Part shown: positions 5,157 to 26,487 of the stretch, piece by piece
Position numbering within the stretch: position 1 is the first letter of the stretch
Layout: every line of letters begins with the position of its first letter
Notes under the pieces: model-generated
Told to the model about the DNA's origin: nothing
The model's input: only the letters and a program-made list of their open reading frames with translations
The model's database searches: none
Assembly (NCBI GenBank): GCA_013287135.1
Contig: JABDEK010000004.1
Span: forward strand, 1 to 64,000
DNA: 64,000 nucleotides
Direction of reading: 5' to 3'
Origin: Acidobacteriota bacterium
Lineage (GTDB): Bacteria; Acidobacteriota; Terriglobia; Acidiferrales; UBA7541
Position numbers and translations under genes: made by a program

Positions 5157-5210
5157 TACTCTTTGGATGAGCTTGTTTGAGCGGCAGTTATTCAGCCCGA
5201 AGATACAGGC

Positions 5211-5910: not shown

Positions 5911-5958
5911 TTCCGCAGCTGAATTGCAACGCTGCCAAATCGGATGGAAGAGGAAATT

Positions 5959-6177: not shown

Positions 6178-6422
6178 TTGTTGCGACCGCGCGAAAGCGC
6201 GAAGAATTTCTACCGTGTTAGGCAGAGCGTAACGGGTGCCTGCCGGCCGGTTGCTTCAGCGATAAACAAATCGCGCGAGCGTAACAGCGGTTCTACGAGA
6301 CAAACCCGTCCCGCTATCCCGCAGAACTTCGCGGCTGGCTGGCCACGTTTGTCTCCCCGTGTTGTAATGGACCCCAAATTTTAGCGATTGCGCCTTAATG
6401 CCGCGCAATAGGAGATCAAGCT
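6178..6422 (+). promoter_or_regulatory. Structured rpmI-rplT intergenic leader
   Basis: This 245-bp gap without a gene is unusually long for a ribosomal protein operon. It contains a GNRA-capped hairpin (CGCGC-GAAA-GCGCG at about 6188-6201), a long-range perfect 9-bp pairing GAGACAAAC (6297-6305) with GTTTGTCTC (6347-6355), and inside it a CCGC/GCGG hairpin. In other bacteria, L20 binds an mRNA leader in this operon and represses it. A comparable role here is inference; no published L20-site consensus was matched. Confidence 0.4.
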
Positions 6423-6842
6423 ATGCCTCGAGTTAAACGTGGGACAAAACGTCGTGCGCGGCGCAAAAAACTGCTGAAGCACGCCAAGGGATTTTTCCTC
6501 ACAAAGGGAAAACTCTATCGGTCGGCCAAAGAAGCTGTGAACCGCTCGTTGCGGTACACCTATCGTGACCGTCGAGTCCGCAAGCGCGATTACCGCACAC
6601 TGTGGATTCAACGCATCGGCGCCGCCGCTCGCAACAACGGCATTACCTACAGCCAATTGATTCATGGACTGAAAGTGGGTGGCATCGAGCTGGACCGGAA
6701 AATCTTGGCGGACATGGCCGTGAACGATGCGGATGGATTTACCGCTTTGGTCGCGTCGGCGAAGCAGCATGTTGCGAAAGCTCCCGGGGATGCGAAGTCG
6801 CACGCGAAGCCGGAACACGTCCGCCACCGCGACGAAGGCTAA
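6423..6842 (+). CDS. rplT: 50S ribosomal protein bL20
   Basis: The start [20 protein letters not shown], the basic N-terminal helix, and [20 protein letters not shown] and [20 protein letters not shown] are all characteristic of bL20. The protein is 139 aa, with about 20 extra basic residues at the C-terminus ([21 protein letters not shown]) compared with the usual 117-120 aa. An AGGAGAT ribosome binding site precedes the ATG. Confidence 0.96.
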
Positions 6843-6977
6843 TTAGCTCAATGATTTTGTAGCGGCGGCGTTCAGGCTGGCGTATTTTCTGTGTGCAGCG
6901 GCAGCAAGCGCCCACGGCTAGTGCGAGTCCGTTGTTTGATTGGGCGGCGAAATGTGTGCAACACGCATACTTCCTAG

Positions 6978-8081
6978 ATGACAACGAGCGATCCTACTGC
7001 GCAAACCCTTGAGCAGCTTGGCGTGAAGACGCTCGAAGCCGTCGGGGAAAAGTTTGCGGAACTGCGCCAGCGATTCGACGACCAATCGTCTCTTCATTTC
7101 TCGAACCGCGAAAATTGGCAAGTCTTTTTGGTCAAATGGACGGGCCGCAAATCTGGAGTTCTGTCACAAATCACGAATAACTGGTTGAAGATGGCGTCGC
7201 CGGAGCTAAAGCCTGTCGTGGGGCAAGAACTGAACAAGCTCAAGGCGCATGTAGAGTCCATCATCGCGGAGCGTCAGCGAGCGATCGAAGCCGCATCCGA
7301 ACAATCGGCCGCCGCGCGCGATAAAATCGATCTTTCGCTCCCGGGCATCGAGCGTTCTTTCGGTACACGACACCTGATCCGGCAAACATTCGAAGAACTC
7401 CAGCAAATTTTCATTGCCATCGGATTCAGCGTGGTCCAAGGGCCTGAAATCGAGACCCCTTACTACAACTTCGAAGCGCTTAACATTCCTGAGCATCATC
7501 CCGCGCGCGATAACATGGACACCTTTTATATCGAGGGTGTGCGGAATAGTCATCTGCTGCGCACGCACACCTCGCCCATGCAGATTCGCACGATGGAAAA
7601 AGAGAAACCGCCGGTTCGCATCGTGGTGCCGGGGAAAGTGTATCGCCGCGATAATCCGGACGCGACTCACGGCTACATGTTTCATCAGATCGAAGGCCTC
7701 GCGGTGGACACCGACATCACTTTCTGCGATTTCAAAGGCACGGTGGAATACTTCGCGCGCGAATTTCTGGGACCAAAAACTAAAACGCGCTTGCGGCCAA
7801 GTTATTTTCCTTTCACTGAGCCGTCCGCCGAAGTGGACGCCACCTGCCACGTGTGCGGTGGGAAAGGCTGCCGCGTTTGCAAATTTTCAGGATGGATCGA
7901 ACTTTTTGGCGCCGGCATGGTGAATCCCGCGGTGTACGGCTTTGTGAAATACGATCCCGAGCGGCTTTCAGGCTTTGCCTTCGGCATGGGTGTGGATCGC
8001 CTGGCCATGATGAAGTACGGCGTCACCGAGGTGCCGCTACTGTTTCAGAACGATTTGCGTTTCTTGCGGCAGTTTCCCTAG
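6978..8081 (+). CDS. pheS: Phenylalanine--tRNA ligase alpha subunit
   Basis: This 367-aa protein has the N-terminal coiled-coil, then the class II catalytic core: HPARDNMDTFY, RTHTSPMQIRTM (motif 2 region), VYRRDNPDATHGYMFHQIEG, and motif 3 FGMGVDRLAMMKYG. A CHVCGGKGCRVCKFSGW segment lies just before motif 3. It forms the alpha2beta2 enzyme with PheT that charges tRNA-Phe. The 135-bp gap from rplT contains no gene; the ribosome binding site is not obvious. Confidence 0.96.
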   Translation: MTTSDPTAQTLEQLGVKTLEAVGEKFAELRQRFDDQSSLHFSNRENWQVFLVKWTGRKSGVLSQITNNWLKMASPELKPVVGQELNKLKAHVESIIAERQRAIEAASEQSAAARDKIDLSLPGIERSFGTRHLIRQTFEELQQIFIAIGFSVVQGPEIETPYYNFEALNIPEHHPARDNMDTFYIEGVRNSHLLRTHTSPMQIRTMEKEKPPVRIVVPGKVYRRDNPDATHGYMFHQIEGLAVDTDITFCDFKGTVEYFAREFLGPKTKTRLRPSYFPFTEPSAEVDATCHVCGGKGCRVCKFSGWIELFGAGMVNPAVYGFVKYDPERLSGFAFGMGVDRLAMMKYGVTEVPLLFQNDLRFLRQFP

Positions 8082-8157
8082 AGCGCGATCTATACGCAGC
8101 GACCCGGCCGAGACACAACACTGGAATTCTCACGAGTTTTGGACTGAGCTTCAAACC

Positions 8158-10242
8158 ATGAAGGTTCTCTACAACGTTCTCACAGAATTCGTTGACATAA
8201 AGGCAGCGCCTGCTGACCTTGCCTCGCGTCTTTCCCTCGCCGGAGTTGCTATTGATTCGGTTGAAGACTCGGCGGCCGGTCCCGTCCTGGACGCGGAAGT
8301 TACCGCAAACCGTCCCGATTGTCTCGGCCATTACGGCATCGCGCGCGAGGTTGCCGCGGTCTACCGTATGCAGCTCAAGCCGGTACAGCCAAAGCTTAAA
8401 GAAGTTGCAGACAATGCCGCGGACGCCACGCGTGTTGAAATCGAATCCCCGGACGTTTGCCGGCGCTTCACCGCTCGCATTCTGCGCGGCGTAAAAGTTC
8501 AGCCCTCACCGGACTGGCTGCGCGAACGGCTCGAGGCCATGGGCCAGAAATCGATCAATAACGTAGTAGACGTCACGAACTACGTAATGTTCGAATTGGG
8601 TCAGCCGCTGCACGCCTATGACTTCGATAAATTAAACGAACGGCGGATCGCCGTGCGGCGCGCGCGTCCAGGTGAAAAACTTTGCACGTTGGATGGTGCG
8701 GAGCGGACCCTCACGAGAGACATGTGTGTGATTGCCGACGCGACTCGCGCCATCGGAATCGGCGGTGTGATGGGCGGAACAGACACAGAGATTAGCTTCA
8801 GTAGCCACAATATTCTGCTGGAAGCCGCGTGGTTTGATCCCATTTATGTTCGACGAACCGCGAAAGCGCTCGGCCTGCGCACGGAAGCTTCTTACCGCTT
8901 CGAGCGCGGAGCCGATCCAGAAATGGCGGAGCTCGCTTCGAGGCGCGCTGCGGAATTAATTCAGCAGGTAGCCGGCGGCGAACTTTTGTCGGGCGTAGTG
9001 GATGTTTATCCCTCTCGCGAACCGGAAAAGAAAATCCAATTGGCGCGAAAAGAAATCCTGCGTGTGATGGGCGCGGATATTCCGGACCGCGGTGTGGAAG
9101 AAATTTTGAGCGCGCTCGGATTTCATCCTACCCGTGTGGATGCAAATCGTGGCAGCGACGGTTCTCTCGCAGCTGTTTGGGAATGCAAACAGGTTTCCTG
9201 GCGGCGCGATGTCACCCGTGGAATCGATCTGATTGAAGAAGTAGCTCGTCACTACGGTTACGACAAATTTCCGCCGCGCCTTCCACCCGCGAAAAAGCCG
9301 GCGCATCGTTTGCCGCACGCAGAGGCTCAGGACCGGTTGGTAGAACGCGCCATCGCGCTTGGCTATCACGAAATCGTAGAAATCCCGATTGCCGATACCC
9401 AACGCGACGCTCTGTTCCGTGAAGAAGGGATTCAACCTGCCGTAATTGGCAACCCGCTGGCGGAAGATGCATCGATTATGCGTTCGAGCGGCATCGTCAG
9501 CATGGTTCGCGCCATCGAATGGAACTTAAATCACGGAAACCGCGATCTGCGGCTGTTTGAGTTCGGCAAAAGATATGAGTTACGCGACGGAGCGCCCGTA
9601 GAATCAGCAGTTCTTACGCTGGGAGCCACTGGTTTGGCTCGCGAGAAAACAATTTATGAAACAGCACGAGAATTCGGTTTCGCAGAATTAAAAGGCGCCC
9701 TCGATCAAATTGGAGAACTAGCGGGCGGATTGGAATGGCAAGCCGGGGGACCGCCTTGGCTGTCGGCCGCACGTTCGGCTCATTTTTCTGCAAAGAACAA
9801 AGGCGAACAACTGGGCGTCGCCGGTCAACTCTCCCGCCGCCTCGCTGAGCAGTTGAAGTTGAGGCAGGAAGTATATCTAGCGGAGCTGAAACTCGAACCG
9901 CTGTACACCTGTATCGAAGCCACACGCGCGGCGCTCCGCTTCGTGCCTTGGCCGCGTTACCCTGCCGTCGAAAGAGATTTTTCGTTGGTGTTAGCCGATG
10001 GCGTCACATTTGCGCAAGTGGAACAAACGATCCGAGCGCTCGCTATCGCCGAGATTCAATCGATCGAAGCTGCTGACCTTTTTCGTGGTGGCCAGATCCC
10101 TGCCGGAAAATATTCTCTTATGATTCGAGTGAAATTCCAAAGCTCGCAAGGAACTCTTACGGACTCACAGCTGGCTGAATTCAGTTCCCGTACCGTGACT
10201 GCGCTCGAACAAAAACTCGACGCCACCTTGCGCGCAAGTTAG
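8158..10242 (+). CDS. pheT: Phenylalanine--tRNA ligase beta subunit, short form lacking the OB-type tRNA-binding domain
   Basis: This 694-aa protein aligns with PheT at its N-terminus ([20 protein letters not shown]), in the [19 protein letters not shown] segment, in the B3/B4 and B5 regions ([34 protein letters not shown]) and in a complete C-terminal FDX-ACB domain ([14 protein letters not shown]). The usual tRNA-binding (EMAP/OB) domain of about 110 residues, which normally lies between the N-terminal helix pair and the NRPDCLG segment, is absent: [20 protein letters not shown] joins directly to TANRPDCLG. The reading frame is intact, so this is a clean domain absence, possibly normal for the lineage. 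Confidence 0.95.
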
Positions 10243-10777: not shown

Positions 10778-12121
10778 ATGCGTGTACAGCGCGTGCGATT
10801 CGCAGTGCTTCTGTTGCTGGGATGTTCTTTGGGTGTAAAGGTGCCGAGGTGTAGCGGCCAAACGCCGCAGCAGCAGCCTGCTGTCCCGCCGGCGCCCAAG
10901 ATACAACCGCCAGCGGCGCAATCGCACGGCGCGGTTCGCCTAAGTCTGGACGAAGCCATCCAATTGGCCCTTCAAAACAATCACAATTTGAAGGCCGCTC
11001 AAACGACCATCCAACAAAACCAGGCGCAAGAAATCACCGCGAATCTGCGGCCCAATCCCAGCCTGACCCTAGACGCGCAATTCCTGCCGATTTTTCAGCC
11101 CGAAAACTTTACGCTCAACTACATCGACACCACCGCGCAGTTTGATGTGGGCATTTCATACTTGTTTGAACGCGGGAAGAAGCGTCAGCACCGCTTGCAG
11201 GCAGCCCAAGACACGACTGCGCAGACGAGATCGACCGTTGCCGATAACGAGCGCACTCTGACTTTCAACGTGGCTTCGCAGTTCTTAAGCGTTCAGCTTG
11301 CGGAATCCACTCTCGATCTGGCAATAGAGGATATGAAGAGCTTTCAGAAAAGCGTGGACATCAGCCAGGAGCGTTACAAGTCCGGCGCCATCAGTGAAGG
11401 TGACTATCTGAAGATCAAGCTCCAATTGCTGCAGTTCCAGAGCGACGTCTCGCAAGCACAGCTCGCCAAAGTTCAGGCGCTCGTCGGCCTGCGGCAGTTA
11501 CTCGGATACCACACCGTCGGGGCGGACTTCGACGTCTCGGCCGATTTCGACTACCTGCCGGTCACCGTCAAACTCGAGGACCTGCAGGCCAAAGCCTTGC
11601 AGAACCGGGCGGATCTTAGAGCCGCGCAACAAGGCGTGATCGCAGCGAAGAGCCAGTACGAACTGGCGAAGGCCAATGGGAAAGTCGATGTCACTGGCAC
11701 GTTCAATTACGACCATGTGAGCGAAACCAACACCGGTTCGATTTTCGGAAGCTTCCAGATTCCGATCTTCAATCGCAACCAGGGCGAAATCGCACGTACG
11801 AATTACGCAATCAATCAGGCCCGGGAGTTGGAGCTGGCAGCGAACGACCAAGTGATGAGCGACGTTCTGAATGCTTACGAGGCCGTTCGCGATAACGACC
11901 AGGTGGTCACCCTCTATCGCTCCGGTTATCTCGATGCAGCGAAGCAATCGCGCGACATCAGCGAGTACTCCTACAAACGCGGTGCCGCAAGCCTTCTGGA
12001 TTTCCTTGATGCTGAACGCAGCTACCGCGCTACCGAACTAGCCTATCGTCAGTCCTTGGCAGCCTATCTAACCGCGGTCGAGCAACTCCGCGAAGCCGTC
12101 GGAGTGAGAACTTTGCCATAA
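10778..12121 (+). CDS. TolC/CusC-family outer membrane efflux protein
   Basis: This 447-aa protein has an N-terminal signal segment (RFAVLLLLGCSLG), a proline-rich linker, and two outer membrane efflux protein repeats rich in long helices. LSLDEAIQLALQNNHNLKAA begins the first repeat, and SFQIPIFNRNQGEIARTNYA is the typical beta-barrel strand of the second. It forms the outer membrane channel of tripartite pumps. It converges on the ferredoxin-like gene 12 bp away, next to the RcnR/ATPase block, which suggests a metal-export role (inference). No inner membrane RND or HlyD partner lies adjacent. Confidence 0.85.
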   Translation: MRVQRVRFAVLLLLGCSLGVKVPRCSGQTPQQQPAVPPAPKIQPPAAQSHGAVRLSLDEAIQLALQNNHNLKAAQTTIQQNQAQEITANLRPNPSLTLDAQFLPIFQPENFTLNYIDTTAQFDVGISYLFERGKKRQHRLQAAQDTTAQTRSTVADNERTLTFNVASQFLSVQLAESTLDLAIEDMKSFQKSVDISQERYKSGAISEGDYLKIKLQLLQFQSDVSQAQLAKVQALVGLRQLLGYHTVGADFDVSADFDYLPVTVKLEDLQAKALQNRADLRAAQQGVIAAKSQYELAKANGKVDVTGTFNYDHVSETNTGSIFGSFQIPIFNRNQGEIARTNYAINQARELELAANDQVMSDVLNAYEAVRDNDQVVTLYRSGYLDAAKQSRDISEYSYKRGAASLLDFLDAERSYRATELAYRQSLAAYLTAVEQLREAVGVRTLP

Positions 12122-12133: not shown

Positions 12134-12514
12134 TCAGTGTCGAAGCGTATGACTGAACGGATCAATGGTATGACCCCTAAAGCTTTTAGGAAGAGGAAGC
12201 AGCCGCGCCGCGTTTCTTGACGCAACCGCCCATTCCAGCAGTTCGCGATACTGCTCGAATTCGTCGATATTTCCCAACCACTGGGTTCCACTTTCATTCG
12301 AAATTGTCACAATATTTGGAACGTCGCAGGGTCCTAAGCAACCGCTCATCGTGAGCTGAATCCGTTTCAATAAACCTCTGGCCCGCCACTCCTTTTTTAA
12401 CCATTCAACCGGAACAGCTGGTCTTCCATTCGCCGTATTCCCGCAGCAACACCCTACACATACACTCACTTGCCCTAGCACGAGTTTCTTCGTCTTTAAT
12501 GCTAACTCTTCCAT
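12134..12514 (-). CDS. Thioredoxin-like [2Fe-2S] ferredoxin-type protein
   Basis: This 126-aa cytoplasmic protein has a cysteine-rich start (Cys19, Cys22, Cys23, Cys24 in VCVGCCCGNTANG) and a second pair Cys59/Cys63 in MSGCLGPCDVPN. This is the spacing of thioredoxin-fold [2Fe-2S] ferredoxins and related metal-binding proteins. It is the last gene of an apparent RcnR-ATPase-ferredoxin series on the minus strand, 33 bp after the ATPase. A role as electron carrier, metal chaperone or cluster-based sensor for the efflux system is possible; the sequence alone does not decide. Confidence 0.65.
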   Translation of the reverse strand: MEELALKTKKLVLGQVSVCVGCCCGNTANGRPAVPVEWLKKEWRARGLLKRIQLTMSGCLGPCDVPNIVTISNESGTQWLGNIDEFEQYRELLEWAVASRNAARLLPLPKSFRGHTIDPFSHTLRH

Positions 12515-12547
12515 GATTTCAACTCGATGGACCGTCCGGGTTCCAGC

Positions 12548-14524
12548 TCAGCTAGTCGCGGAGGACGATGGTGAAAGCGTCCCGCGAACAATTTGTTTAG
12601 CCGACGAAACCGACGGCAGTAACCTCGCTGAATTCAAGATAAAGGCCATTTCGGACGAAACATGAATAAAGGCGGCCAGTAGAGGATTCAGAAATCCAAA
12701 AGCGGCCAGGCCCACACCGACGCTATCCACCGCTAGCGTTCCAACAAAATTTTGCAGGATAGTGCGGCGACAGCGCCGCGCGGTCCGCAAGGTTTCAACG
12801 AGCTTCGAAAGATCGCTTCCAATTAGCACGACGTCCGCGCTTTCGCGTGCGACATCCGTTCCGGAGCCCATGGCCACTCCCACAGACGCTTGCATCAACG
12901 CCGGTGCGTCGTTCACCCCGTCTCCGACCATCGCTACGCTATGACCCTTTTCAATGAGCTGTTTCACGTACGCAAGTTTGTCTTCAGGCAAAAGGTCCGA
13001 CACAATCTCGTGAACACCGAGTTTCCCGCCGATATCTTCGGCCACAGCCTTCGCGTCGCCCGTAAGCAGCACCGTTCGCAGACCCATCACCTTCAGCGAC
13101 TGAATTGCACTGTGCGCTTCGGGGCGAAGCGTGTCGGCAACTTGCAGCGTCCCCAAAAAACGCCCGCCGCGAGCTACAAAAATCTCAGAGCCCAAGCCCC
13201 GGGCATTCATCCGAGCAGATGGGACTCCACGTTCAGTCAGGAAATGCTGGTTACCAACAACGATTTCTTCACTATCATGTATCGCGACGATGCCTTTGCC
13301 CGGCATGTACTCAAATTGTTCAGAATCTTCGCTCGGGATGCCTAGTTGTGCCGACTTCGCAAGAATTGCCTTGGCGATGGGATGCTCGGAACGAGACTCG
13401 GCAATCGCGGCACTCTTCAACAAGACTGCCGGAGGAATATTTTCGGCAGGGCATACGTTTATGAGCTCTAACGTGCCGTAGGTGAGAGTTCCGGTCTTGT
13501 CGAGAAGTATGGTATCGACTTCTCCCAGTTTTTCCAGATAAAGCCCTCCTTTGATGATTGCACCATCTTGTGCTGCCCGACCGATTGAGCCAAGGATCGC
13601 AAGTGGCGTCCCCGCGGCGATGCCGCAGGCGCCAGCCACGATGATCACTGAAATCGTCGAGCGAATATTATAGGTAAACAAAAAGGTCAGGATGGCTGCC
13701 GCCAGTGCAAAATAGACCAAATAGCCCGCAAGCCGGTCGGCGATTCCTTGAATCGGCGCGCGCGACTTCTCCGCAGTCTCAACGGCCTCAATTATCTTGC
13801 CGAAAGTAGTGTCGCGACCAACACGCTCTACGCGAATTTCGAGTGCTCCCGACTGATTAATTGTGCCGGCATAAACTATGGCGCCCGCTTGTTTTTCAAC
13901 GGGCATAGACTCACCGGTAATTGGCGCTTGATCTACAAAGGAATGCCCGCCGACAACCTTCCCATCTACAGGGATGCGCGCACCCGGCCGGACAAGCACT
14001 TCGTCGTCCGTCGAAACTTTCTGAATTTCTAAGTCTGTCCACGATCCACTCCGCCGCACGGTCGCCGTGCTCGGCAACAGGTCCACTAGATGTTGTATTG
14101 CTTTGCGGCCACGCCCAACGGTGAGCCCTTCTAAGATCTCTGCGACCAGAACAAAGAGCGTTATCACCAGCGCGGTAAAAATTTCCCGGATCGCCAGAGC
14201 TGCCACGATAGCGATCGCCATCGACAACTCCATCGTCATGCGGCGTTGTGCAATGTTTTCATAGGCCTCGCGAAAGATCGGAAATCCACCCACAAAGGTA
14301 CAAACTACTCCAATACCGGTAACGTACGGGTTTCTCGCTCCGTGCAGCAGCAGAATAGCGATCGCTGCTCCCGCTACGAATAAAACGCGGCCGATTTCCA
14401 GCCAGTTGAGCGGCCCTTCTTCGCCGTGACCGCTTTCATGTTCAGCAGAAATCTGAGAAGCTGTTAAATGATTCGTTGCGGGAAGATCTACTGCTTCCAC
14501 TTGCATCTTTTTCACTTCGGACAT
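12548..14524 (-). CDS. Heavy-metal P1B-type ATPase with non-canonical metal motif
   Basis: This 658-aa protein has all P-type ATPase catalytic motifs: TGES (203-206), the phosphorylated Asp342 in DKTGTLTYG, the SEHPIAKA His-Pro motif, and GDGVNDAPAL. No N-terminal metal-binding domain is present; a short His-rich stretch (AEHESGHGEEG) precedes the first helix. The TM6 CPC-type motif is replaced by GAC (298-300, VAGACGIAAGTP), with no proline. The last helix has HVSSEMAFILNSARL. The start at 14524 has GGAG upstream. The upstream RcnR-like repressor suggests Ni/Co export, but the altered motif leaves the metal uncertain. Confidence 0.88.
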   Translation of the reverse strand: MSEVKKMQVEAVDLPATNHLTASQISAEHESGHGEEGPLNWLEIGRVLFVAGAAIAILLLHGARNPYVTGIGVVCTFVGGFPIFREAYENIAQRRMTMELSMAIAIVAALAIREIFTALVITLFVLVAEILEGLTVGRGRKAIQHLVDLLPSTATVRRSGSWTDLEIQKVSTDDEVLVRPGARIPVDGKVVGGHSFVDQAPITGESMPVEKQAGAIVYAGTINQSGALEIRVERVGRDTTFGKIIEAVETAEKSRAPIQGIADRLAGYLVYFALAAAILTFLFTYNIRSTISVIIVAGACGIAAGTPLAILGSIGRAAQDGAIIKGGLYLEKLGEVDTILLDKTGTLTYGTLELINVCPAENIPPAVLLKSAAIAESRSEHPIAKAILAKSAQLGIPSEDSEQFEYMPGKGIVAIHDSEEIVVGNQHFLTERGVPSARMNARGLGSEIFVARGGRFLGTLQVADTLRPEAHSAIQSLKVMGLRTVLLTGDAKAVAEDIGGKLGVHEIVSDLLPEDKLAYVKQLIEKGHSVAMVGDGVNDAPALMQASVGVAMGSGTDVARESADVVLIGSDLSKLVETLRTARRCRRTILQNFVGTLAVDSVGVGLAAFGFLNPLLAAFIHVSSEMAFILNSARLLPSVSSAKQIVRGTLSPSSSATS

Positions 14525-14574
14525 GTGACACGCTCCGAAACCAAAGAATTTCTGCAATCCAACCGGCCCTTTCG

Positions 14575-14853
14575 CTATTTCAGATACGTTCTTACAAGTT
14601 CGATCAGCTCCTCGGCAGCTTTCGTCTGCGGTGAATTAGCCGCGCTCTGCGGCGATAACACATGAAAGCGCACGTGCCCCTCCATCACCTCGGCCATCAG
14701 GCCGTTCAGGGCGCCGCGGCACGCAGCCATCAGCTGCAGCACGTCGGCGCATTCAGACTCCTCAGCTAGAGCGCGTTCTAGCGCGTCAATCTGGCCGCGA
14801 ATTCTGCGCACGCGGAGCAGGAGTTTTTCTTTGTCTTTTGCGGTGTGAGCCAT
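14575..14853 (-). CDS. CsoR/RcnR-family metal-responsive repressor, RcnR-like
   Basis: This 92-aa all-helical DUF156 protein has RVRRIRGQIDALERAL and NGLMAEVMEGHVRFHV. Residues His3, Cys35, His60 and His64 match the Ni/Co ligand set of RcnR. The formaldehyde sensor FrmR shares much of the backbone but lacks His3 and His64. It is the first gene of the minus-strand metal block, 50 bp upstream of the ATPase. A palindrome at 14862-14884 immediately upstream is its probable operator. Family knowledge predicts repression relieved by metal binding. Confidence 0.9.
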   Translation of the reverse strand: MAHTAKDKEKLLLRVRRIRGQIDALERALAEESECADVLQLMAACRGALNGLMAEVMEGHVRFHVLSPQSAANSPQTKAAEELIELVRTYLK

Positions 14854-18538: not shown

Positions 18539-20965
18539 ATGGAAACATCTTCCGCTCTTTTTGAGCTCGCGAGCGTGTCGCTAGCGTGTCGCGATCAAGA
18601 CACATTACTCAAGACTTTTGCCGCTCGAGTGGGCGCCACACTCGGAGCGCGTGCCGTGCTCGTTTGGATCGCGAATCCAACGGGCGAAGATCTGGTTTGC
18701 CGCATGCGCTGGACCGAACCCGGTGAACGCCTTCATCCGAGAGACTTGCCAGCGAGCGGAGGGATGCTGGGAATACTATATCAATCGGCCGCCACTCGAC
18801 GTTTGCCTGCCCGTGAAATCTCGGTAGAGGATCTCGAGCATCTTGACGAATTCAGCCGCACGCGCGTGAAATCTGCGCTCTATGCTTCTTTGCCAGGCGT
18901 GCAAAGACCTGAAGGGGTAGTAGAAGTCCTGAATAAACGCGCTGGAGAGTTTACCGCTGAAGACGCTCACTTTCTGGAAGAAGCCTGCCGCCTGGCGGGC
19001 GGCGCTTTAACGAATTTGGACGCGATTGAAGCCGAGCGCCATGCGCAACTCTCCACCCTCGAACGCCTCACCGCCCTTTACGATCTCGGCCGCACGTTCA
19101 CATCGACTTTAGAACTCGAAGAACTCCTTCCAATCGTCGCTGGTAAGATTCGCGACATTTTGGGGGCCGGCGCTTGCAACTTATGGCTCGCTTCTGCGGA
19201 CGGAGAACAACTTACCCTTGCGAAACAAATCGGAGAAGATCCCACAATTGAAGAAGACGCCACCGCACCGTTGAATGAAGGCCTTCTCGCCGACATCGCA
19301 CAACAAGCCAACCCCAAACTGCTCGAGGATCCCAGTGAAGAACCTGCGCTCGCCGAACGTATTAAAGCCGGAGGCGATTTCGAAATTCAATCGTGGATGG
19401 GCGCTCCCCTTCGCAAAGACGACGAAGTTCTCGGCGTCGTTGAAATAATCAACAAGTCCGACGGCACGCTGTTCAACGAAGATGATTTGTTTTTCCTTTC
19501 CAGCATCAGCGAGCAAGCTGCCGTAGCGCTGCATAACGCTAACTTGCTCGAATCCGAGCGTAAGGTTCACGCCCTCGACGCGCTTTTGAAGATTTCACAG
19601 GAAATTACCTCCACCCTGGATCTCGATCACGTGTTGACCACTGTAGTCGCGCAGTCTTCCAACGTGGTTCCCTTTGAGAGTTGTGTGATTGGATTCTACG
19701 ACCGCGGACGCTTCATCCTGGGTGCCGTGTCAGGTGAAACCGAAGTTCCCAAGACTCGGGAAATGAGCGACCTGCGCGAGCGCATGGAGTGGGTGGCCGA
19801 GCAGGAAAACCCCGTTTCGGCAAATTTGCACGAAGATGGCTGGCAATTTGACCCCGATGAAACGCGAGCGCAGGTCGTCTCGTTTCTCGAAGAGCATGGG
19901 CATCAGGGTTTCTATGGTCTGCCATTACGCGACGACCAGGGAACTCTCGGCGCGATGATTCTTCTTAGCAATGAGCCCGATTTCCTTTCAGAAAGCAATC
20001 TAGAGACGCTGGCCATTCTCGCCAGCCAGACCACCGTGGCCATACGCAATGCGCAGCTATATCAGCAAGTGCCGCTGGCGAACATCTTTCAACCGTTCGC
20101 CCAGCGAAAGAAAAAATTGATCGCGGCTATGCCCAGAAGCCGGGTAGTGGAATATGCCCAACGCGCCGGTATCGTCGGGGCCCTTCTGATACTCATTCCT
20201 TGGCCCATGCGCGTGGGCACCGACGCAACCGTAGTCCCGGCCGACCGCCGCGTCGTGAGCGCGATGGAAGGCGGCACGGTAAAACAGGTCTTCGTACACG
20301 AGGGAGATCTGGTAAAACCCGGACAAGTACTGGCGCAACTCGATGACAGCGAGGATCGCGTGAAATTGGCGGAAGCGGAGGCTTCCTTGTCTCAGGCACG
20401 CCGCGAATTGGCCGAAGCCGAATTTCGAAACGATCCTTCCGCTGCGGGGCAAGCGCAAATTCGCAACCAACTGTACTCCGCGGAAGTCGCGCTGGTGCAG
20501 CAACGTGTCAACGAAGCGCGATTGACTTCACCAATTAGCGGCATCGTGGTCACGCCGAAAGTGGAAGAAAAAACCGGCACCATGCTAAAGGCAGGCGATC
20601 CCTTTTCCGAGATAGTCGCCCAAGACCACATGGCTGCGGAAATGAGTGTTCCGGAGACAGACCTGGCCCTCGTACGGCCGGGACAAAACATAGCCCTGAA
20701 GTTGAATGCTTTCCCGACAATAACATTCAAAGGAAACGTGGAGCGCCTCGGCGCTAGGACCCATACCGACTCCGGCGACCAGTATTTTCTGGTGCGTGCT
20801 ATATTCGAAAATACTGGGGGAAATGCACGTGACGGAATGGTCGGAAGGGCGAGAATTCAGTCACATGGCGGGTGGTTCGGCAGTGGATGGTACCCGATAG
20901 GCTACGCCATTTTGCGCTCGCCATTCCGATGGATTTGGCAAAAGGCGTGGGCCTGGTTGCCGTAA
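18539..20965 (+). CDS. Triple-GAF sensor fused to an HlyD-type membrane fusion protein
   Basis: This 808-aa protein combines parts not usually joined. Residues 1-165, 170-340 and 342-510 are three GAF domains (for example LSTLERLTALYDLGRTFTST and VHALDALLKISQEITSTLDL, each ending in a QAAVALHNANL-like helix). Residues 541-558 form one membrane helix (GIVGALLILIPWPM). Residues 568-790 are an HlyD/biotinyl-lipoyl adaptor (GGTVKQVFVHEGDLVKPGQV and ARLTSPISGIVV). The topology places the GAF domains in the cytoplasm and the adaptor in the periplasm. GGGAGAG precedes the ATG. It starts a three-gene operon with a second adaptor and an M50 fusion. Cytoplasmic sensing coupled to export is inferred. 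Confidence 0.88.
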   Translation: METSSALFELASVSLACRDQDTLLKTFAARVGATLGARAVLVWIANPTGEDLVCRMRWTEPGERLHPRDLPASGGMLGILYQSAATRRLPAREISVEDLEHLDEFSRTRVKSALYASLPGVQRPEGVVEVLNKRAGEFTAEDAHFLEEACRLAGGALTNLDAIEAERHAQLSTLERLTALYDLGRTFTSTLELEELLPIVAGKIRDILGAGACNLWLASADGEQLTLAKQIGEDPTIEEDATAPLNEGLLADIAQQANPKLLEDPSEEPALAERIKAGGDFEIQSWMGAPLRKDDEVLGVVEIINKSDGTLFNEDDLFFLSSISEQAAVALHNANLLESERKVHALDALLKISQEITSTLDLDHVLTTVVAQSSNVVPFESCVIGFYDRGRFILGAVSGETEVPKTREMSDLRERMEWVAEQENPVSANLHEDGWQFDPDETRAQVVSFLEEHGHQGFYGLPLRDDQGTLGAMILLSNEPDFLSESNLETLAILASQTTVAIRNAQLYQQVPLANIFQPFAQRKKKLIAAMPRSRVVEYAQRAGIVGALLILIPWPMRVGTDATVVPADRRVVSAMEGGTVKQVFVHEGDLVKPGQVLAQLDDSEDRVKLAEAEASLSQARRELAEAEFRNDPSAAGQAQIRNQLYSAEVALVQQRVNEARLTSPISGIVVTPKVEEKTGTMLKAGDPFSEIVAQDHMAAEMSVPETDLALVRPGQNIALKLNAFPTITFKGNVERLGARTHTDSGDQYFLVRAIFENTGGNARDGMVGRARIQSHGGWFGSGWYPIGYAILRSPFRWIWQKAWAWLP

Positions 20966-20985: not shown

Positions 20986-21912
20986 ATGAAACGCGCTTTA
21001 CTCGTCTTGATCGCAACCATCGCTCTTAGCGGGAACGGTTGCGACAAATCTTCAGTAGCATCTAATGCCAAGGTTGCGCCGGAAACGCCGGCAAACTCAG
21101 CTCCTTCCCAACCAACCGCAAATACGGGAACCCCGAGGCCGTCCGAACCTGGTGATATCCTAAGCATCCTTACAGTAGAACATCAGGTAGATCTCTCATC
21201 GCAACGCGATGGCGTCGTAATTTCCGTGCTGAAAGATGAGGACAACGTTGTAAACACGGGCGACATACTGGGCCACCTGGATGACCGAACTTTGCAACAG
21301 GAACTCATCAAAGCTCGCGATGATCTGAAGGTCACCGAAAACAACCTGCAATACAAAGCAGCCGAATTGAAAGCTAAAGGCGCGGCCTACCGCCGCCAGC
21401 AACAATTGCGAGAAGCAGGGTTATCAAGTCAGGCCGATCTTGAACAGGCCGAATTCGAAGCCAAAGGCGCCGAGTACGATATGCACGGATACGAAGCCCT
21501 GGTCGAAAGCGGCAAAGCGGAAATCCATCGCCTTGAAATTGAAATTGATCAAACTGCTCTGCGCGCGCCATTTTCGGGTGTAGTGGTCCGCCGTTACATT
21601 CGAGAAGGCCAAGCCATTGCAAAGGGCGATAAGTGTTTTCGCATTAGCCAACTTTCTCCCCTTCAAGTCCAATTTCAAGTTTCTGAGTTGGCTGGCCCCC
21701 GTCCTGTTGCGGGCGCGCCGGTGGGCTTGGTCTTGTTAGACGGTTCGAATCGGCCGTTGAATGCGAAGGTCGTGAAGGTCAGTCCTACAGTGGACCCCTC
21801 CAGCGACAGCTACAACGTAGTGGCCCAACTTACCGGTCCTGGACTCGAGAATCTGCGCCCCGGAATGGCCGTGCGAGTTGGATGGCCAGGAACTTCGCAA
21901 CCGAAGCCCTAA
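20986..21912 (+). CDS. HlyD/RND-type periplasmic adaptor, possible lipoprotein
   Basis: This 308-aa protein starts at the ATG at 20986 (GAGGAAA ribosome binding site). Its N-terminus (RALLVLIATIALSGNGCDKS) fits a lipoprotein signal with Cys19, although the lipobox is imperfect. A half-lipoyl domain (RDGVVISVLKDEDNVVNTGD), a helical hairpin of about 90 residues (QLREAGLSSQADLEQAEFEA) and a second half (QTALRAPFSGVVVRRYIREG) follow, then a beta-barrel. Such adaptors link inner and outer membrane components. It lies 20 bp after the GAF-HlyD gene and 15 bp before the M50 fusion. Confidence 0.88.
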   Translation: MKRALLVLIATIALSGNGCDKSSVASNAKVAPETPANSAPSQPTANTGTPRPSEPGDILSILTVEHQVDLSSQRDGVVISVLKDEDNVVNTGDILGHLDDRTLQQELIKARDDLKVTENNLQYKAAELKAKGAAYRRQQQLREAGLSSQADLEQAEFEAKGAEYDMHGYEALVESGKAEIHRLEIEIDQTALRAPFSGVVVRRYIREGQAIAKGDKCFRISQLSPLQVQFQVSELAGPRPVAGAPVGLVLLDGSNRPLNAKVVKVSPTVDPSSDSYNVVAQLTGPGLENLRPGMAVRVGWPGTSQPKP

Positions 21913-21927: not shown

Positions 21928-24075
21928 ATGCGTTTCGGCCCCACCAGCCTTCAAGTTTCCAGCGTTCTCGCAAAAGGGCTCAAGCGCCCCAAACTCCGCG
22001 CCGACCTGCGTATCAGCGAACAGACGGTGGCGGGCGAAGTCAGTTACGTAATCAAAAACCGCGAGACCAATTCCTATAACCGCTACGGAAGCACGGAATA
22101 CCAGTTGTTGTCGCTTTGCGATGGCACGCGTACACCCGCGGAAATCGCCCGGGCCATGTCCGCCGACGACCCGGAATCGCAAACCAGCGAAGCCGAGGTG
22201 CTCGAATTTCTCGATTCCATCGAACCCACCATGTGGGAACGATCGATCGGTGAGAAAAACCTCGCGGTTTTGGAGCGAATTCGCGACGAACGCAAAGGCC
22301 GTATCGATCAGTCGAGTGTCCTTTACATCAGCTTCAAAGCTTGGAACCCGGATAAAACCCTGGCGAAATTAGACACCTATCTTTGGTGGATGTTTACAAA
22401 GAGTTTTGTGATCTTTTCATTGTTTATATTCGTCGTCGCCGTTTACCTGCTAGCGGGCGATTGGACCCGCGTTCAGCAGGACACCTCGGCCCTATATAAT
22501 TTTGCCAACAAAAGCGCGTATGACCTCTGGGTCTTCTGGATTCTCCTTCTGGGCCTAGGTGCCATACACGAATTTGGCCACGGCCTCACCTGCAAACATT
22601 TCGGTGGGGACGTCCATCAAATGGGCTTTTTGCTCATCTATTTTACTCCCGCGTTTTTCACCGACACCACCGACATCCTCCTCTTCAAAACCGGCGCTCC
22701 GCGTCAATGGGTTATATTCGCCGGAATCTGGATTGAGCTAGTAATCTGCGGTTTGGCCGCCTTGGTATGGCATTTCTCCGCGCCCGGCTCGCTGGTGAAT
22801 GATTTCTTCTACAAGATGATGCTGCTCAGTGGAATTCAGGGTGCCGTTGTTAACCTGAATCCATTGATCAAGGCTGATGGCTATTACGCGCTTTCGCAAT
22901 TCTTGAATATCGATAACCTTCGCGAAGAATCCTTCGTTTTTCTTGAGGCCTGGGTTCACAAATACATTTTCCGACGCGACATCGACCTCCCACCTGCTAG
23001 CAAGCGCCAACGACGCATTTTTTTCTTGTTTGGAGTCTCCGCCATCGTTTACAGCACCTCGCTGCTAATTCTTGTGCTTCTCTTCGTCAAAAACGTATTG
23101 GTGAGCAAAATGGGCGACGCTTGGGGCTATGTTGCAACCCTTGGCATCGTGTATTTCTTTGCCAGGAAAAGTTTGCGAAAGGCCGTGCCGGCGGCTCGCG
23201 CTTGGATACGAGACAAAAAGGAGAAATATATGGCCTGGAAGATCACTCGCGCACAGGGCGCTTGGGCGCTGGGATTGATTCTCCTATTCCTGCTACCTCC
23301 TCTTTCATCAAAGATAACCACCGACCTAGTCCTCGAACCGGGAAAAGACGCGCGGGTTAGAGCTTTGGTGGAAGGGAGAGTCCAAAAAGTGTTTGTCCAT
23401 GAAGGCGATCAAGTCAAAGCCGGCCAATTGCTGGGCGTTTTGGAGAACCCTGAAGTGAATGCCGACGTCCAATCGCTCCAGCACAAGCTGGCTATCGCTA
23501 GCAGCAACCTGCGCACTAACCAGGATCGCTCGGACCTCGGTCAAACAGCACAAGCGGTACGTGATCGTAAGCGGCTCGCGCAAGAACTGTCGGTAGGAAA
23601 GAACAAAGTGCAGGGACTCGAAATTCGATCACCCATCGATGGTACCGTCGCGACCCCTAACGTGGACCAGGAAACCGGATCATACCTGTTGGCCGGCGAC
23701 GAGTTTGCACACGTAGTCGACCGAAGCATCATGAAAGCTCGAATTCTGGTACAGGATCGCGAAGTTCAAGATGTTCAACCAGGCGCTTCCGCAAAAGTGA
23801 AAGTGTTGCCATATCCTTTTCGCACTTACTCCGGCCACATCAATAGAATACTTCCGGCTGCGGCCCTGGACCATCCCGTCACACAAACCGAAAAACTCGT
23901 GCGTTTAGGCCAGGACTTGACAAATTACCTCGCAGTCGAAATGGACGTCCCGAACTCAGACGGGTCCCTGATCGAGGGCATGACCGGTAAAGCAAAGATC
24001 ACGGGGAATGAGGAATCTTTGGCTTGGCAGGCGGGAAAAGGAATATGGCGTTGGCTTCGTTCGCAATTCTGGTAG
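21928..24075 (+). CDS. PqqD-like domain / M50 site-2-type protease / HlyD fusion
   Basis: This 715-aa protein has three parts. Residues 25-100 resemble PqqD, the RiPP recognition element (YNRYGSTEYQLLSLCDGTRT ... VLEFLDSI). Residues 150-430 are a multi-helix M50 protease core with the zinc motif HEFGH at 214-218 and the NPLIKADG motif at 311-318, both intact. Residues 445-715 are an HlyD-type adaptor (VRALVEGRVQKVFVHEGDQV and LEIRSPIDGTVATPNV). The likely job is to recognise a small peptide in the cytoplasm, cut it within or at the membrane and hand it to the periplasmic adaptor (inference). It is the last gene of the operon and is followed by a bidirectional terminator. Confidence 0.9.
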   Translation: MRFGPTSLQVSSVLAKGLKRPKLRADLRISEQTVAGEVSYVIKNRETNSYNRYGSTEYQLLSLCDGTRTPAEIARAMSADDPESQTSEAEVLEFLDSIEPTMWERSIGEKNLAVLERIRDERKGRIDQSSVLYISFKAWNPDKTLAKLDTYLWWMFTKSFVIFSLFIFVVAVYLLAGDWTRVQQDTSALYNFANKSAYDLWVFWILLLGLGAIHEFGHGLTCKHFGGDVHQMGFLLIYFTPAFFTDTTDILLFKTGAPRQWVIFAGIWIELVICGLAALVWHFSAPGSLVNDFFYKMMLLSGIQGAVVNLNPLIKADGYYALSQFLNIDNLREESFVFLEAWVHKYIFRRDIDLPPASKRQRRIFFLFGVSAIVYSTSLLILVLLFVKNVLVSKMGDAWGYVATLGIVYFFARKSLRKAVPAARAWIRDKKEKYMAWKITRAQGAWALGLILLFLLPPLSSKITTDLVLEPGKDARVRALVEGRVQKVFVHEGDQVKAGQLLGVLENPEVNADVQSLQHKLAIASSNLRTNQDRSDLGQTAQAVRDRKRLAQELSVGKNKVQGLEIRSPIDGTVATPNVDQETGSYLLAGDEFAHVVDRSIMKARILVQDREVQDVQPGASAKVKVLPYPFRTYSGHINRILPAAALDHPVTQTEKLVRLGQDLTNYLAVEMDVPNSDGSLIEGMTGKAKITGNEESLAWQAGKGIWRWLRSQFW

Positions 24076-24101: not shown

Positions 24102-24136
24102 AAAAGGGCCGCCGTTCCTGGGACGGCAGCCCTTTT
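24102..24136. terminator. Bidirectional terminator between the M50 gene and the peptide genes
   Basis: AAAAGGGC-C-GCCGT pairs with ACGGC-A-GCCCTTTT around a 7-base loop. The A-run and T-run flank both sides, so it can end the plus-strand export operon and the minus-strand peptide transcript. Confidence 0.88.
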
Positions 24137-24187: not shown

Positions 24188-24274
24188 TTAGAACTTGGTC
24201 AATGGCTTGTAGTGGTTCAACGGCTTCACTGTTCCCAGCTTCTTTCCCTTTTTCACCGGCTTTGCTTTTGCCAT
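24188..24274 (-). CDS. Small lysine-rich peptide 1 (28 aa)
   Basis: The reading frame begins MAKAKPVKKGKKLGTVKPL and continues with nine residues ending PLTKF before TAA. It is too short for routine gene calling, but an AAGGAGA ribosome binding site precedes the ATG and two paralogues (24680 and 24802) share the MAK-K-LKK-K-L-TKPL pattern. The peptide is strongly basic, with ten lysines. A sigma-54-type promoter lies 55 bp upstream. It converges on the PqqD/M50/HlyD operon, sharing a terminator, which makes it a candidate substrate of that machinery. No function is known to me. Confidence 0.75.
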   Translation of the reverse strand: MAKAKPVKKGKKLGTVKPLNHYKPLTKF

Positions 24275-24328
24275 GTTCGTAAGTCTCCTTAGAACTTTTT
24301 GTTTTCCAACTTCCTACACTGCTGCTAG

Positions 24329-24344
24329 TGCAATCTACGAACCA
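24329..24344 (-). promoter_or_regulatory. Sigma-54 (-24/-12) promoter of peptide 1
   Basis: On the minus strand TGGTTCGTAGATTGCA matches the sigma-54 consensus TGGCACG-N4-TTGCA, with GG and GC separated by exactly 10 bp. The transcript would start near 24317, about 43 nt before the peptide start. A second near-identical site lies upstream of peptide 3. Confidence 0.75.
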
Positions 24345-24460
24345 AACCAGGATCGAGTGCTCCTGGAATTCCCGCACCTGATTTAAAAGCACTTACCGGC
24401 ATTAGGCACAAATAATGAAGAACCGGCGGTGACCGAAAGTGTTTAATTTTTTGTGCTGAA

Positions 24461-24801: not shown

Positions 24802-24870
24802 TTACCTCAATACGATGAGGGTCTTCGTCTGCTCCAGCTTTTTTGCCTTCTTTAAAGTCTTCTTTGCCAT
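24802..24870 (-). CDS. Small lysine-rich peptide 3 (22 aa)
   Basis: The frame begins MAKKTLKKAKKLEQTKTL and ends IVLR before TAA. GGGAGA precedes the ATG at good spacing. It is the first gene downstream of a sigma-54-type promoter (24916-24931), with a leader of about 35 nt. The pattern MAKK-x-LKKAK-x-LE-x-TK-x-L is shared with peptide 2. The conserved N-terminal half with variable tail is what one expects of a leader-core arrangement, or of cationic secreted peptides; which applies is unknown. Confidence 0.78.
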   Translation of the reverse strand: MAKKTLKKAKKLEQTKTLIVLR

Positions 24871-25062: not shown

Positions 25063-26487
25063 CTATAGATTGTATTTACGACATAGATAGTTTAGACGGT
25101 TCCGATCCACGCCGAGTAATTTAGCCGCTTCTGCCCTCACTTGCTTGGCCTGCTCGAGAGCTTCTTGGAGCCACCGGCGTTCAAATGCTTCCATTTCCTT
25201 CTCCAGGTTGATTCCGCCGGAGGGCAGCCGAAACCGGTTCCGCGAATCCCGGCCGGAAGCCTGTACGATTTCACTAGGGAGGTCTTTCAGCGAGATCACC
25301 TCCCCGTCGGTCATGATAACCAGCCGCTGAATCGCGTTCTGGAGTTCCCGGACATTGCCAGGCCACGGATAGCGCTTAAGGGCCAGCATCGCATCATCGG
25401 CGATACGCTTCAAAGGGAAGCCGTTGGCGGCACAATAGACGCTCACGAAGTAATCTGTGAGCACAGGTATATCTTCCACTCGTTCGCGCAGCGAAGGCAC
25501 GAAAATCGGCACTACGTGAATACGGTAGTAGAGATCTTCGCGAAACCGTTCCTCCCGAACCATTTCCTCCAAATCTTCGTTGGTCGCGCTAATAAGCCTG
25601 AAATCCACCTTGATAGACTTTTTGCCACCCAATCGGGTAAACGACCTATCCTCGAGCACGCGCAGGAGCTTGCTCTGGAGTGCGGGCGTTAGCGTCGCAA
25701 TTTCATCGAGGAAAAGGGTGCCTTGGTGGGCTGTTTCGACCCTACCTTCTTTTGTGGCGACCGCACCCGTGAAGGCGCCTTTTTCATAACCGAAGAGCTC
25801 AGCCTCCATCAAACCTTCAGGAAGCGCAGCGCAATTCACGCTAACGAACGCGCGATTGCGGCGTGGACTTTGCTCGTGAAGAGCCCGGGCAACCAGCTCT
25901 TTGCCTACCCCGCTCTCTCCTCGAATGATCACGTTGGTGGTCGCCCGGGCCATGCGCTTGATGGAATCGAACACGTGGCTCATGGCGTCGGTCGAACCGA
26001 TCAGATCGCCATGCGCGCTCTTGCGGCTTATCTCCTGACGCAGAATGCGGTTCTCGCGCTGAATGTGTAATTTTTCAACAGCGCGCTCAAGTAGATGCCT
26101 AAGGACGTCTGTGTCGATAGGTTTAATGAAGTAGTCGTAGGAGCCTGCGTCGATCACTTTCAGTGCGGTGGCCTTCGTTTCGTCAGAACTGAGAACGATT
26201 ACAAGCGTGTCAATTTCGCTTCCCACCAGCCGGCCAAGCAGCTCGGTGCATTCACGAACTCCTGCGTCGCCGAGCGGAAGACCTAGCAGAAGAACGTCCA
26301 GTTCAGAACCTTGTAGAAGCCGATAAGCCGCTTCGAAGTCTTGCCCTTCGAACACCTCAAACTGCGATCGCAGCGCGGATGCAATCTTCGAGCGCAGGCT
26401 GTGGTCGTCATCTACAATCGCAACTTTGGGCTTTGTTACTACCGGGGTGATAGTGGTCTCCGGCGGGGAGCTGACATAAATGACCAA
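25063..26487 (-). CDS. NtrC-family sigma-54 activator with a degenerate receiver domain
   Basis: This 474-aa protein has a receiver-like domain (20-140), an AAA+ domain (160-390) and a Fis-type helix-turn-helix at the C-terminus (RAEAAKLLGVDRNRLNYLCR). The AAA+ domain has Walker A GESGVGKE, the sigma-54 contact loop GAFTGA, and TLFLDEIATL. In the receiver the acidic pair DDD (26-28) and Lys (FIKPID) are present, but the phospho-acceptor Asp is Gly69 (DVLLLGLPLGD). It is therefore unlikely to be controlled by ordinary phosphorylation. It lies directly upstream of the peptide genes with sigma-54 promoters and is the obvious candidate regulator (inference). No histidine kinase is adjacent. Confidence 0.92.
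   Translation of the reverse strand: MVIYVSSPPETTITPVVTKPKVAIVDDDHSLRSKIASALRSQFEVFEGQDFEAAYRLLQGSELDVLLLGLPLGDAGVRECTELLGRLVGSEIDTLVIVLSSDETKATALKVIDAGSYDYFIKPIDTDVLRHLLERAVEKLHIQRENRILRQEISRKSAHGDLIGSTDAMSHVFDSIKRMARATTNVIIRGESGVGKELVARALHEQSPRRNRAFVSVNCAALPEGLMEAELFGYEKGAFTGAVATKEGRVETAHQGTLFLDEIATLTPALQSKLLRVLEDRSFTRLGGKKSIKVDFRLISATNEDLEEMVREERFREDLYYRIHVVPIFVPSLRERVEDIPVLTDYFVSVYCAANGFPLKRIADDAMLALKRYPWPGNVRELQNAIQRLVIMTDGEVISLKDLPSEIVQASGRDSRNRFRLPSGGINLEKEMEAFERRWLQEALEQAKQVRAEAAKLLGVDRNRLNYLCRKYNL

Follow-up and report, generated by a model that had tools for sequence, protein, structure and literature searches.

A peptide-recognition domain, a site-2 protease and an export adaptor in one polypeptide: a candidate peptide maturase of a conserved Acidobacteriota operon

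What does a protein do that carries a peptide-recognition domain, an intramembrane protease and an export adaptor in one chain, and on what does it act? This question is raised by a gene in a 64,000-nucleotide stretch of DNA from an Acidobacteriota bacterium of the order Acidiferrales (assembly GCA_013287135.1, contig JABDEK010000004.1, positions 1 to 64,000; this whole stretch is referred to as the window). An initial annotation had described the gene product as a fusion of a PqqD-like domain, an M50 (site-2-type) protease and an HlyD adaptor, and had suggested that a dedicated ATP-binding cassette (ABC) transporter would be unnecessary if the M50 domain itself releases the peptide outward. 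The reading that we favor, with a probability of about 0.6, is that the protein is a peptide maturase guided by an RRE (recognition element of ribosomally synthesized and post-translationally modified peptides [RiPPs]) and built into an export adaptor, from which peptides would pass to a periplasmic conduit. On the evidence of gene order and domain content, its gene is one of three adaptor genes in a conserved Acidobacteriota operon with a sigma-54 regulator, an operon that the initial annotation had overlooked. The gene and the domains of its product are as follows.

21928..24075, + strand: RRE-M50-HlyD single polypeptide, 715 amino acids (aa), exact open reading frame (ORF) bounds
Residues ~17 to 110: RRE
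Residues ~135 to 440: M50/site-2 protease
Residues ~441 to 715: HlyD/MacA-like adaptor

The fusion itself is confirmed by the ORF, by its motifs, by profile and fold matches and by the domain order, which is kept across 74 aligned fusion-protein sequences down to ~25 to 30% identity. The motif HEFGH lies at residues 214 to 218 and NPLIKADG at residues 311 to 318, and none of the 74 aligned sequences departs from H214, E215, H218, N311, P312 or D317, which upholds the proposal of an intact site-2 protease core. When compared with PDB sequences, the M50 part gives only two weak matches, both to M50 proteases (E values of 0.75 and 1.4), and the matches listed in a full-length fold search are dominated by adaptors, which limits what that search shows to the adaptor part. 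The adaptor part scores above the Pfam cutoffs for both HlyD_D23 (57.6 bits; E value of 1.4e-15) and HlyD_3 (56 bits; E value of 7.8e-15), and in a fold comparison it aligns with MacA of MacAB-TolC over 238 residues (Z score of 19.2; 2.9 Å) and with AcrA and MexA at Z scores of ~16, so its identification as an HlyD adaptor also stands. Its fold and hairpin are those of the MacA/HlyD adaptors of tripartite pumps, but these adaptors pair with a linked pump, whereas here the adaptor is fused to a protease and three different adaptors, one of them with GAF domains, are encoded in one operon. The fusion protein terminates in a conserved amphipathic helix rich in Trp, the last of which (Trp715; window positions 24070 to 24072) is kept in at least 90% of the 74 sequences, and a similar stretch forms the C terminus of the GAF-HlyD protein described below.

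Full-length relatives of the fusion protein (48 to 100% identity) are encoded in 25 of 95 genomes of the order, the source genome included. A scan of species genomes retained 79 distinct loci out of 295 relatives, and the window brings the number of fusion-gene loci to 80; the named relatives among the 79 are almost all Acidobacteriota. (A match count of 105 of 396 genomes takes in HlyD-only matches and is not used here as a count of systems.) At L069 to L072, in the same order, a related RRE-M50 part continues into longer C-terminal regions, the ORFs reaching ~990 aa; neither GAF-HlyD nor the regulator has a match nearby, and these proteins may represent a sister system.

A single-sequence search leaves the PqqD assignment of the N-terminal domain unsettled because the domain from the window scores below the Pfam PqqD cutoff of 23.4 bits (14.7 bits in the whole fusion protein and 18.9 bits for the domain alone). 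Among its relatives, PF05402 matches 9 of 43 N-terminal domains at an E value of ≤0.01 (best, 4.4e-6), and a genome search gives a PqqD score of 26.1 bits, above the cutoff, within the M50 gene of relative G053. A profile of the 43 domains finds PqqD (5sxy), lasso B1 (5v1u), PqqD (3g2b) and PqqC/D at the top of the PDB sequences (E values of 0.007 to 0.1), and hhalign aligns the N-domain profile with a ten-sequence PqqD alignment at a probability of 93.6%, compared with ≤3.4% for 40 column-shuffled copies and 0.2% for a reversed copy. (The PqqD alignment consists of 10 of 16 listed loci; L183, L185, L197, L203, L210 and L191, the last of which was misread, were left out.) The AlphaFold2 model of the domain (mean predicted local distance difference test score [pLDDT] of 89) has the order β3-α3, with strands at 12 to 18, 21 to 28 and 33 to 38 and helices at 39 to 46, 54 to 64 and 72 to 81; this is the order required of an RRE according to the available portion of PMC12710340. 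In a Foldseek search of the PDB with this model, ranks 1 to 7 are all RREs (TbiB1, 6jx3 and PqqD 5sxy), with E values of 0.005 to 0.03, none of them ≤0.001, and query TM-scores of 0.52 to 0.68, and six of these seven are chains from three entries solved with leader peptide. Based on the profile comparisons and the model, the assignment of this domain as a PqqD-like RRE is well supported, and it is predicted to bind a leader. The PqqD homology proposed in the initial annotation is thus sustained by profile-profile and fold tests, although the window domain itself stays under the Pfam cutoff. The lasso-peptide B1 RREs and PqqD, which make up the best seven PDB matches, have the β3-α3 fold in common with this domain, but sequence similarity to them is low and the RRE of the fusion protein is joined to a membrane-embedded protease.

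The full-length model (mean pLDDT of 81; predicted TM-score of 0.55) has membrane helices at approximately residues 158 to 177, 197 to 224, 256 to 283, 289 to 309, 359 to 395, 397 to 414 and 441 to 455, and a β hairpin at 232 to 245, where the hydropathy peak might suggest another helix. Reading the model together with the loop charges, and counting the hairpin as re-entrant, we predict seven membrane crossings. The loop charges, taken as alignment averages, are in keeping with an internal N terminus and an external HlyD part and place the catalytic motifs where their helices end on the cytoplasmic side; in the model, the HlyD part is joined directly to the last membrane helix. Hydropathy and loop charge therefore agree with the model on a cytoplasmic PqqD-like domain and a periplasmic HlyD domain, and no topology that places the PqqD-like domain outside the cytoplasm appeared.

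If the N-terminal domain binds a leader, peptides that carry one should be encoded nearby. The gap between the M50 gene and the convergent regulator gene contains the following candidates.

24802..24870, - strand: leader peptide 1, MAKKTLKKAKKLEQTKTLIVLR, 22 aa
24680..24754, - strand: leader peptide 2, MAKKPLKKAKNLEPTKPLTRTAWK, 24 aa, probably cotranscribed with peptide 1
24188..24274, - strand: leader peptide 3, MAKAKPVKKGKKLGTVKPLNHYKPLTKF, 28 aa
24915..24932, - strand: sigma-54 -24/-12 site TTGGTATTATGTTTGCAC, GG 60 nt before the ATG of peptide 1
24328..24345, - strand: sigma-54 -24/-12 site TTGGTTCGTAGATTGCAC, GG 69 nt before the ATG of peptide 3
24102..24136, found on the - strand: terminator-like hairpin, 14 pairs, between the M50 gene end and peptide 3
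25063..26487, - strand: sigma-54-dependent activator, receiver-AAA-Fis, nearest NCBIfam TIGR02915 PEP-CTERM response regulator

All three peptides are encoded on the regulator strand and have a Lys-rich leader in common; peptides 1 and 3 each have a -24/-12 site at the distance given, peptide 2 has none of its own, and a sigma-70 promoter scan of this gap in the window found none. We applied a rule that is blind to the leader, namely, an ORF of 18 to 160 aa with a ribosome site, whose start on the regulator strand is 50 to 110 nt downstream of a scored GG-N10-GC site. It is satisfied in 59 of 62 complete M50-regulator gaps; on the opposite strand, 2 of 62 satisfy it, and shuffling predicts 0.55. 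The three gaps that fail are those of L100, in which a leader peptide is present by motif, L108 and L117. Counted the other way, a sigma-54 site precedes 47 of 48 leader-defined peptides, where 0.3 would be expected. Leaders of near relatives of the window differ by 0 to 0.09 at nonsynonymous sites (pN) and by 0.08 to 0.72 at synonymous sites (pS) over 12 pairs, which indicates purifying selection, and because the differences are mostly synonymous, we conclude that the window-type peptides are genes. The reading of these ORFs as chance ORFs is rejected on the same two grounds. The peptides whose existence the initial annotation had implied are thus real genes by promoter-site statistics and by leader pN/pS, and their role as substrates is a prediction from their context.

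Two further observations connect the peptides with the protease: leader types follow protease clades, and a leader-pattern search of the 95 genomes of the order finds ORFs with the window-type leader only in genomes that have the M50 gene. That search gave matches in 13 genomes; pattern matches in G012, G067, G054, one G055 contig and one G058 contig were judged on inspection not to be leader peptides. We therefore regard it as very improbable that the short ORFs are not substrates and that the fusion is a general efflux or membrane-quality protease beside unrelated small genes. This explanation can appeal to a peptide-protease link known from sequence context, and it runs against the 59 of 62 gaps, the leader conservation, the N-terminal RRE and the agreement of leader types with protease clades.

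Window-type leader copies also occur outside the operon in G069, G070 and G071 (loci L233, L234, L235 and L236). Examples are MAKKILKKAKKLEATKPLTTFVR in L233 and a pair in L236; the L233 copy and one L236 copy follow a -24/-12 site. The off-operon copy in the source genome (L232, position 4338, - strand, contig C105) has no in-frame start codon and may be a relic. A third leader type (MVEKFSVTVPLTARQKAQIKKATG... and MARPKSITIKLTETQRTQLRKLTG...) lies behind sigma-54 sites in L097 (~8786 to 9271) and L129 (~10904 to 11573), and in both of these loci the middle HlyD gene is missing. A curated-family search with the three window peptides and three peptides of relatives assigned them to no family, and weak matches to LpxD and other hexapeptide-repeat proteins (best E value of 6e-4, 19 bits) were put down to the repeats.

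In the relatives, the part that follows the leader is usually a tandem repeat, with units such as VRPT, KPAI, NQPLLK, VGHSPKV, LSKGGA, LQRGT, KRLDSA and RANT. We analyzed 48 leader-defined peptides: a motif scan for the leader across L097 to L152 supplied 39, and 9 were added by hand (L064 is the same as L132, so 47 are distinct). Core periodicity beats shuffles in 45 of the 48 (<1% of 300 shuffles each), the failures being L131, L138 and L050, and the best repeat periods are 3 to 12 residues. A clear period is found in 36 of the 48 peptides, and the commonest unit of each of these holds at least one Lys or Arg; every one of the 48 cores is net positive, and Cys is absent from all of them. Between repeat units, pooled pS is 0.62 and pN is 0.24 (simplified count, 34 peptides). 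Because units differ more at synonymous than at nonsynonymous sites, the amino acid repeat pattern itself appears to be kept, and the explanation of the repeats as recent DNA copies only is rejected. Over the 25 closest locus pairs, cores average an identity of 0.49, compared with 0.79 in the leaders and 0.74 in the protease, and so change faster than either.

The regulator scores 420 bits against TIGR02915, which makes the PEP-CTERM response regulators its nearest likeness, but this is below the cutoff of 502.6, and unlike those regulators it is assigned, by its position only, to the peptide promoters. Its residue 69 is Gly where the phospho-acceptor Asp of a receiver is expected, and 42 of 55 aligned regulators retain this Asp; with Asp lost to Gly, control may have left phosphorylation in the branch to which the window belongs. 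A STAS-domain gene lies upstream of the GAF-HlyD gene in 41 of the 80 loci (median, ~3.8 kb upstream of the M50 start; for example, L125, 4713 to 5345), and an RsbW-like ATPase gene lies beyond the regulator in 9 of 80, so these proteins may be partner-switching parts that gate the system. The remaining recurring neighbor groups are scattered, each in ≤11 loci. One could suppose from the STAS and RsbW-like genes, from the GAF domains, which are sensors, and from a receiver that is degenerate in part of the family that the locus is a regulatory circuit, in which the peptides serve for signaling or switching and the sigma-54 regulator is controlled, in place of product export, by the M50 protein, the GAF-HlyD protein and, in many relatives, the STAS/RsbW-like proteins. 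We think this unlikely since, without transport, three HlyD adaptors would be hard to explain, and peptide regulation and peptide transport can both hold.

The two other adaptor genes are contiguous with the fusion gene and precede it in the operon.

18539..20965, + strand: three GAF domains, one hydrophobic segment and an HlyD adaptor, 808 aa, first operon gene (Pfam)
20986..21912, + strand: HlyD/RND-type periplasmic adaptor by profile matches, probable lipoprotein (MKRALLVLIATIALSGNGC...)

In the first of these, the GAF domains come before HlyD. The middle HlyD ORF was listed from a GTG at 20872, but its likely start is the ATG at 20986. The strict lipoprotein pattern is matched by 39 of 72 relatives and not by the window protein, which is nevertheless probably a lipoprotein as judged from its sequence. 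Within reach of the M50 gene in the 80 loci, the GAF-HlyD gene is found in 76, the middle HlyD gene in 76 and the convergent sigma-54 regulator in 62, with contig ends the cause of most missing members; the regulator is absent from L141 (Bacteriovoracaceae), L148 (Gemmatimonas; only 1.5 kb of flank) and L149 (Planctomycetota). Sigma-54 control of the operon promoter ahead of GAF-HlyD was rejected, as sites precede this gene in 1 of 64 loci, with no excess over the 3.1 expected. L141 has two TolC-type genes beside its M50 gene and, within 823 to 9839, a GAF-HlyD gene on the other strand, a gene for a 1,012-aa protein with a weak adhesin-domain match, and no sigma-54 regulator. In the window, a small cluster at 12134 to 14853 (- strand), identified by eye as metal handling (a ferredoxin-like protein, a P-type metal ATPase and a CsoR-like repressor), is unrelated.

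These elements suggest a pathway. The domains and their order, the intact active site, the operon, the peptide genes and the promoters are read directly from the sequence. The sigma-54 regulator would set the supply of small peptides from the promoters beside its gene, the cytoplasmic RRE would bind the Lys-rich leader, and the M50 core would cut the peptides at the cytoplasmic side of the membrane. The periplasmic HlyD part and the operon's remaining two HlyD proteins, one with GAF sensor domains in the cytoplasm and one a probable lipoprotein, may then form a mixed adaptor ring or conduit that leads towards an outer membrane TolC-type channel, through which the peptides would be exported. 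Energy might come from an unlinked pump or from a coupling of a yet-unrecognized kind.

The energy step is where the proposal of the initial annotation has to be weighed. A motif scan for ABC ATPases (not a profile search) in the flanks of the 80 loci gives hits in only 7, the nearest of which starts 4.9 kb from the M50 start and none of which adjoins the operon. MFS or RND pumps are not among the recurring neighbors in the 80 loci, as judged by recurrence without a profile scan, and no modifying enzyme recurs in their flanks of ≤10 kb, by a recurrence count that bears only indirectly on RiPP-modifying families. Decarboxylase, aminotransferase, methyltransferase and ABC genes were likewise not recognized among the recurring neighbor groups of the 80 loci, as inspected by eye, with only the STAS and RsbW-like groups named by profile. 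The claim that no dedicated ABC transporter is needed is therefore consistent with the operon, in or adjoining which there is none, but it is consistent only, since an unlinked pump is possible.

The stronger claim, that the M50 domain is itself the inner membrane path and that a single polypeptide does the binding, the cutting and the outward release without an ABC transporter or other pump, fits the contiguous operon genes with no recurring ABC transporter and the fusion of HlyD to the last membrane helix, and cleavage and export by an M50 protease alone have been postulated for YydH/EpeP in the available portions of PMC7026026 and PMC10885120. However, the helices carry the active site at their cytoplasmic ends, there is neither an NTPase nor an ion-coupled pump, and an inside-negative potential would hold back the cargo, which has a net positive charge in all 48 peptides. 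Because the cargo is cationic and the potential is inside-negative, outward movement needs energy, and unpowered export of such cargo is unlikely. We know of no peptide channel formed by a single site-2 protease fold, which also counts against this path. Since the product carries a strong positive charge and the active site faces the cytoplasm, pump-free release by the M50 domain is a minority reading, which we hold to be improbable. In its boldest form, it would amount to an ABC-free trans-envelope secretion system in which an RRE-guided site-2 protease, fused to its own adaptor and served by two more, replaces the inner membrane pump and delivers sigma-54-switched, fast-evolving cationic repeat peptides as kin-specific toxins or signals; we consider this doubtful.

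For the energy step, the leading alternative is that the fusion protein cuts and docks the peptide and that an unlinked inner membrane pump, for example, a MacB-like permease of Acidobacteriota, powers transfer through the adaptor ring. This is a real possibility, to which we give somewhat less than even weight. The adaptor is nearest MacA by fold, and MacB-type permease genes, recognized by eye among the ORFs of L232, are present elsewhere in the source genome; on the other hand, none of the 80 loci has an ABC gene linked to the operon, and the MacA likeness is weak evidence because AcrA and MexA score almost as well.

Several observations weigh against an RRE-guided maturase that feeds an export conduit. 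The window peptides are only 22 to 28 aa long and nonrepetitive, ending in LIVLR, TAWK and LTKF, so if all of the conserved part is leader, the product would be only 4 to 9 aa. The sigma-54 scan finds no peptide in L108, L117, L141, L148 or L149. In Acidobacteriota, TolC is not linked to the operon: a blastp search of the loci finds a TolC gene only in the window, where it starts 11 kb upstream of the M50 start, and in L141. Pfam M50 (PF02163) scores 19.1 bits in the window protein, under its cutoff of 27.2, and 29.6 bits in the L141 relative. Finally, site-2 proteases usually cut membrane helices, and the peptides of the window system have none. An exception to helix cutting is provided by TglG and TmoG, which the available text of PMC10885120 describes as M50 proteases that release modified residues from carrier peptides.

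How does the maturase that we propose compare with known systems? The closest likeness is to the daptide protease MpaP/DapP. According to the available text of PMC10036551, daptide precursors, several small ones per cluster, lose their leader to an RRE-dependent intramembrane peptidase with the RRE N-terminal to the site-2 protease, and the clusters also encode ABC transporters. NCBIfam NF041824 (daptide intramembrane metalloprotease) spans residues 34 to 412 of the fusion protein, that is, the N-terminal domain and protease (180.8 bits; E value of 4.3e-53), and matches 23 of 23 members of a fusion-protein alignment at E values of ≤1e-10. In contrast to MpaP/DapP, the fusion protein adds an HlyD domain, and its score is below the equivalog cutoff of 300; daptide precursors have an ELExMEAP leader and a C-terminal Thr, as far as this text describes them, whereas the window peptides have neither. 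The decarboxylase, aminotransferase and methyltransferase that, with the ABC transporters, it reports for daptide clusters were not noticed by eye among the recurring neighbors here. A daptide cluster is thus rejected on the score, the precursor motif and the C-terminal Thr.

In the epipeptide system, as described in the available portions of PMC7026026 and PMC10885120, the M50 protease YydH/EpeP is presumed both to cleave a small peptide and to release it, and the linked ABC transporter is assigned to immunity instead of export. The epipeptide operon has a radical SAM epimerase, and these portions describe no HlyD fusion for YydH/EpeP. NF058609 (epipeptide protease YydH/EpeP) gives the fusion protein 41.8 bits against a cutoff of 225, and an epipeptide cluster is also rejected. 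The TMcin enzyme TmcP resembles the protease in that a site-2-protease-like enzyme removes the leader at the membrane, but TMcin precursors contain a transmembrane helix and depend on an ABC transporter for export (available text of PMC13252029). Daptides and epipeptides offer a precedent for maturation based on an RRE or a site-2 protease (PMC10036551 and PMC7026026, as available), one that the initial annotation had overlooked. As judged by its domains, scores and precursors, the present system is a variant of RRE/site-2-protease peptide maturation outside the daptide and epipeptide classes.

No description of an RRE-M50-HlyD fusion or of such repeat peptides was found in the open-licence PMC literature, a search that leaves most subscription papers outside, and none is given in the available portions of PMC10036551, PMC7026026, PMC10885120, PMC13252029, PMC12710340 and PMC8939145. 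Fusions of an RRE with a site-2 protease are known from daptides; the HlyD fusion, the three-adaptor operon and the repeat peptides look new.

What the system adds is an architecture that holds recognition, intramembrane cutting and an export adaptor in one chain, and its surroundings, the operon and the peptides, make the fusion protein more interesting than the initial annotation stated. The candidate substrates are more striking than the protein, with a constant leader joined to repeats that vary by locus in length (3 to 12 residues) and in letters, and they would provide ready protease-substrate pairs for studying how an RRE drives an M50 protease. The system bears on whether a site-2 protease can take part in export, which has so far only been postulated for YydH/EpeP, and its conserved operon belongs to a large phylum of soil bacteria with poorly known peptides.

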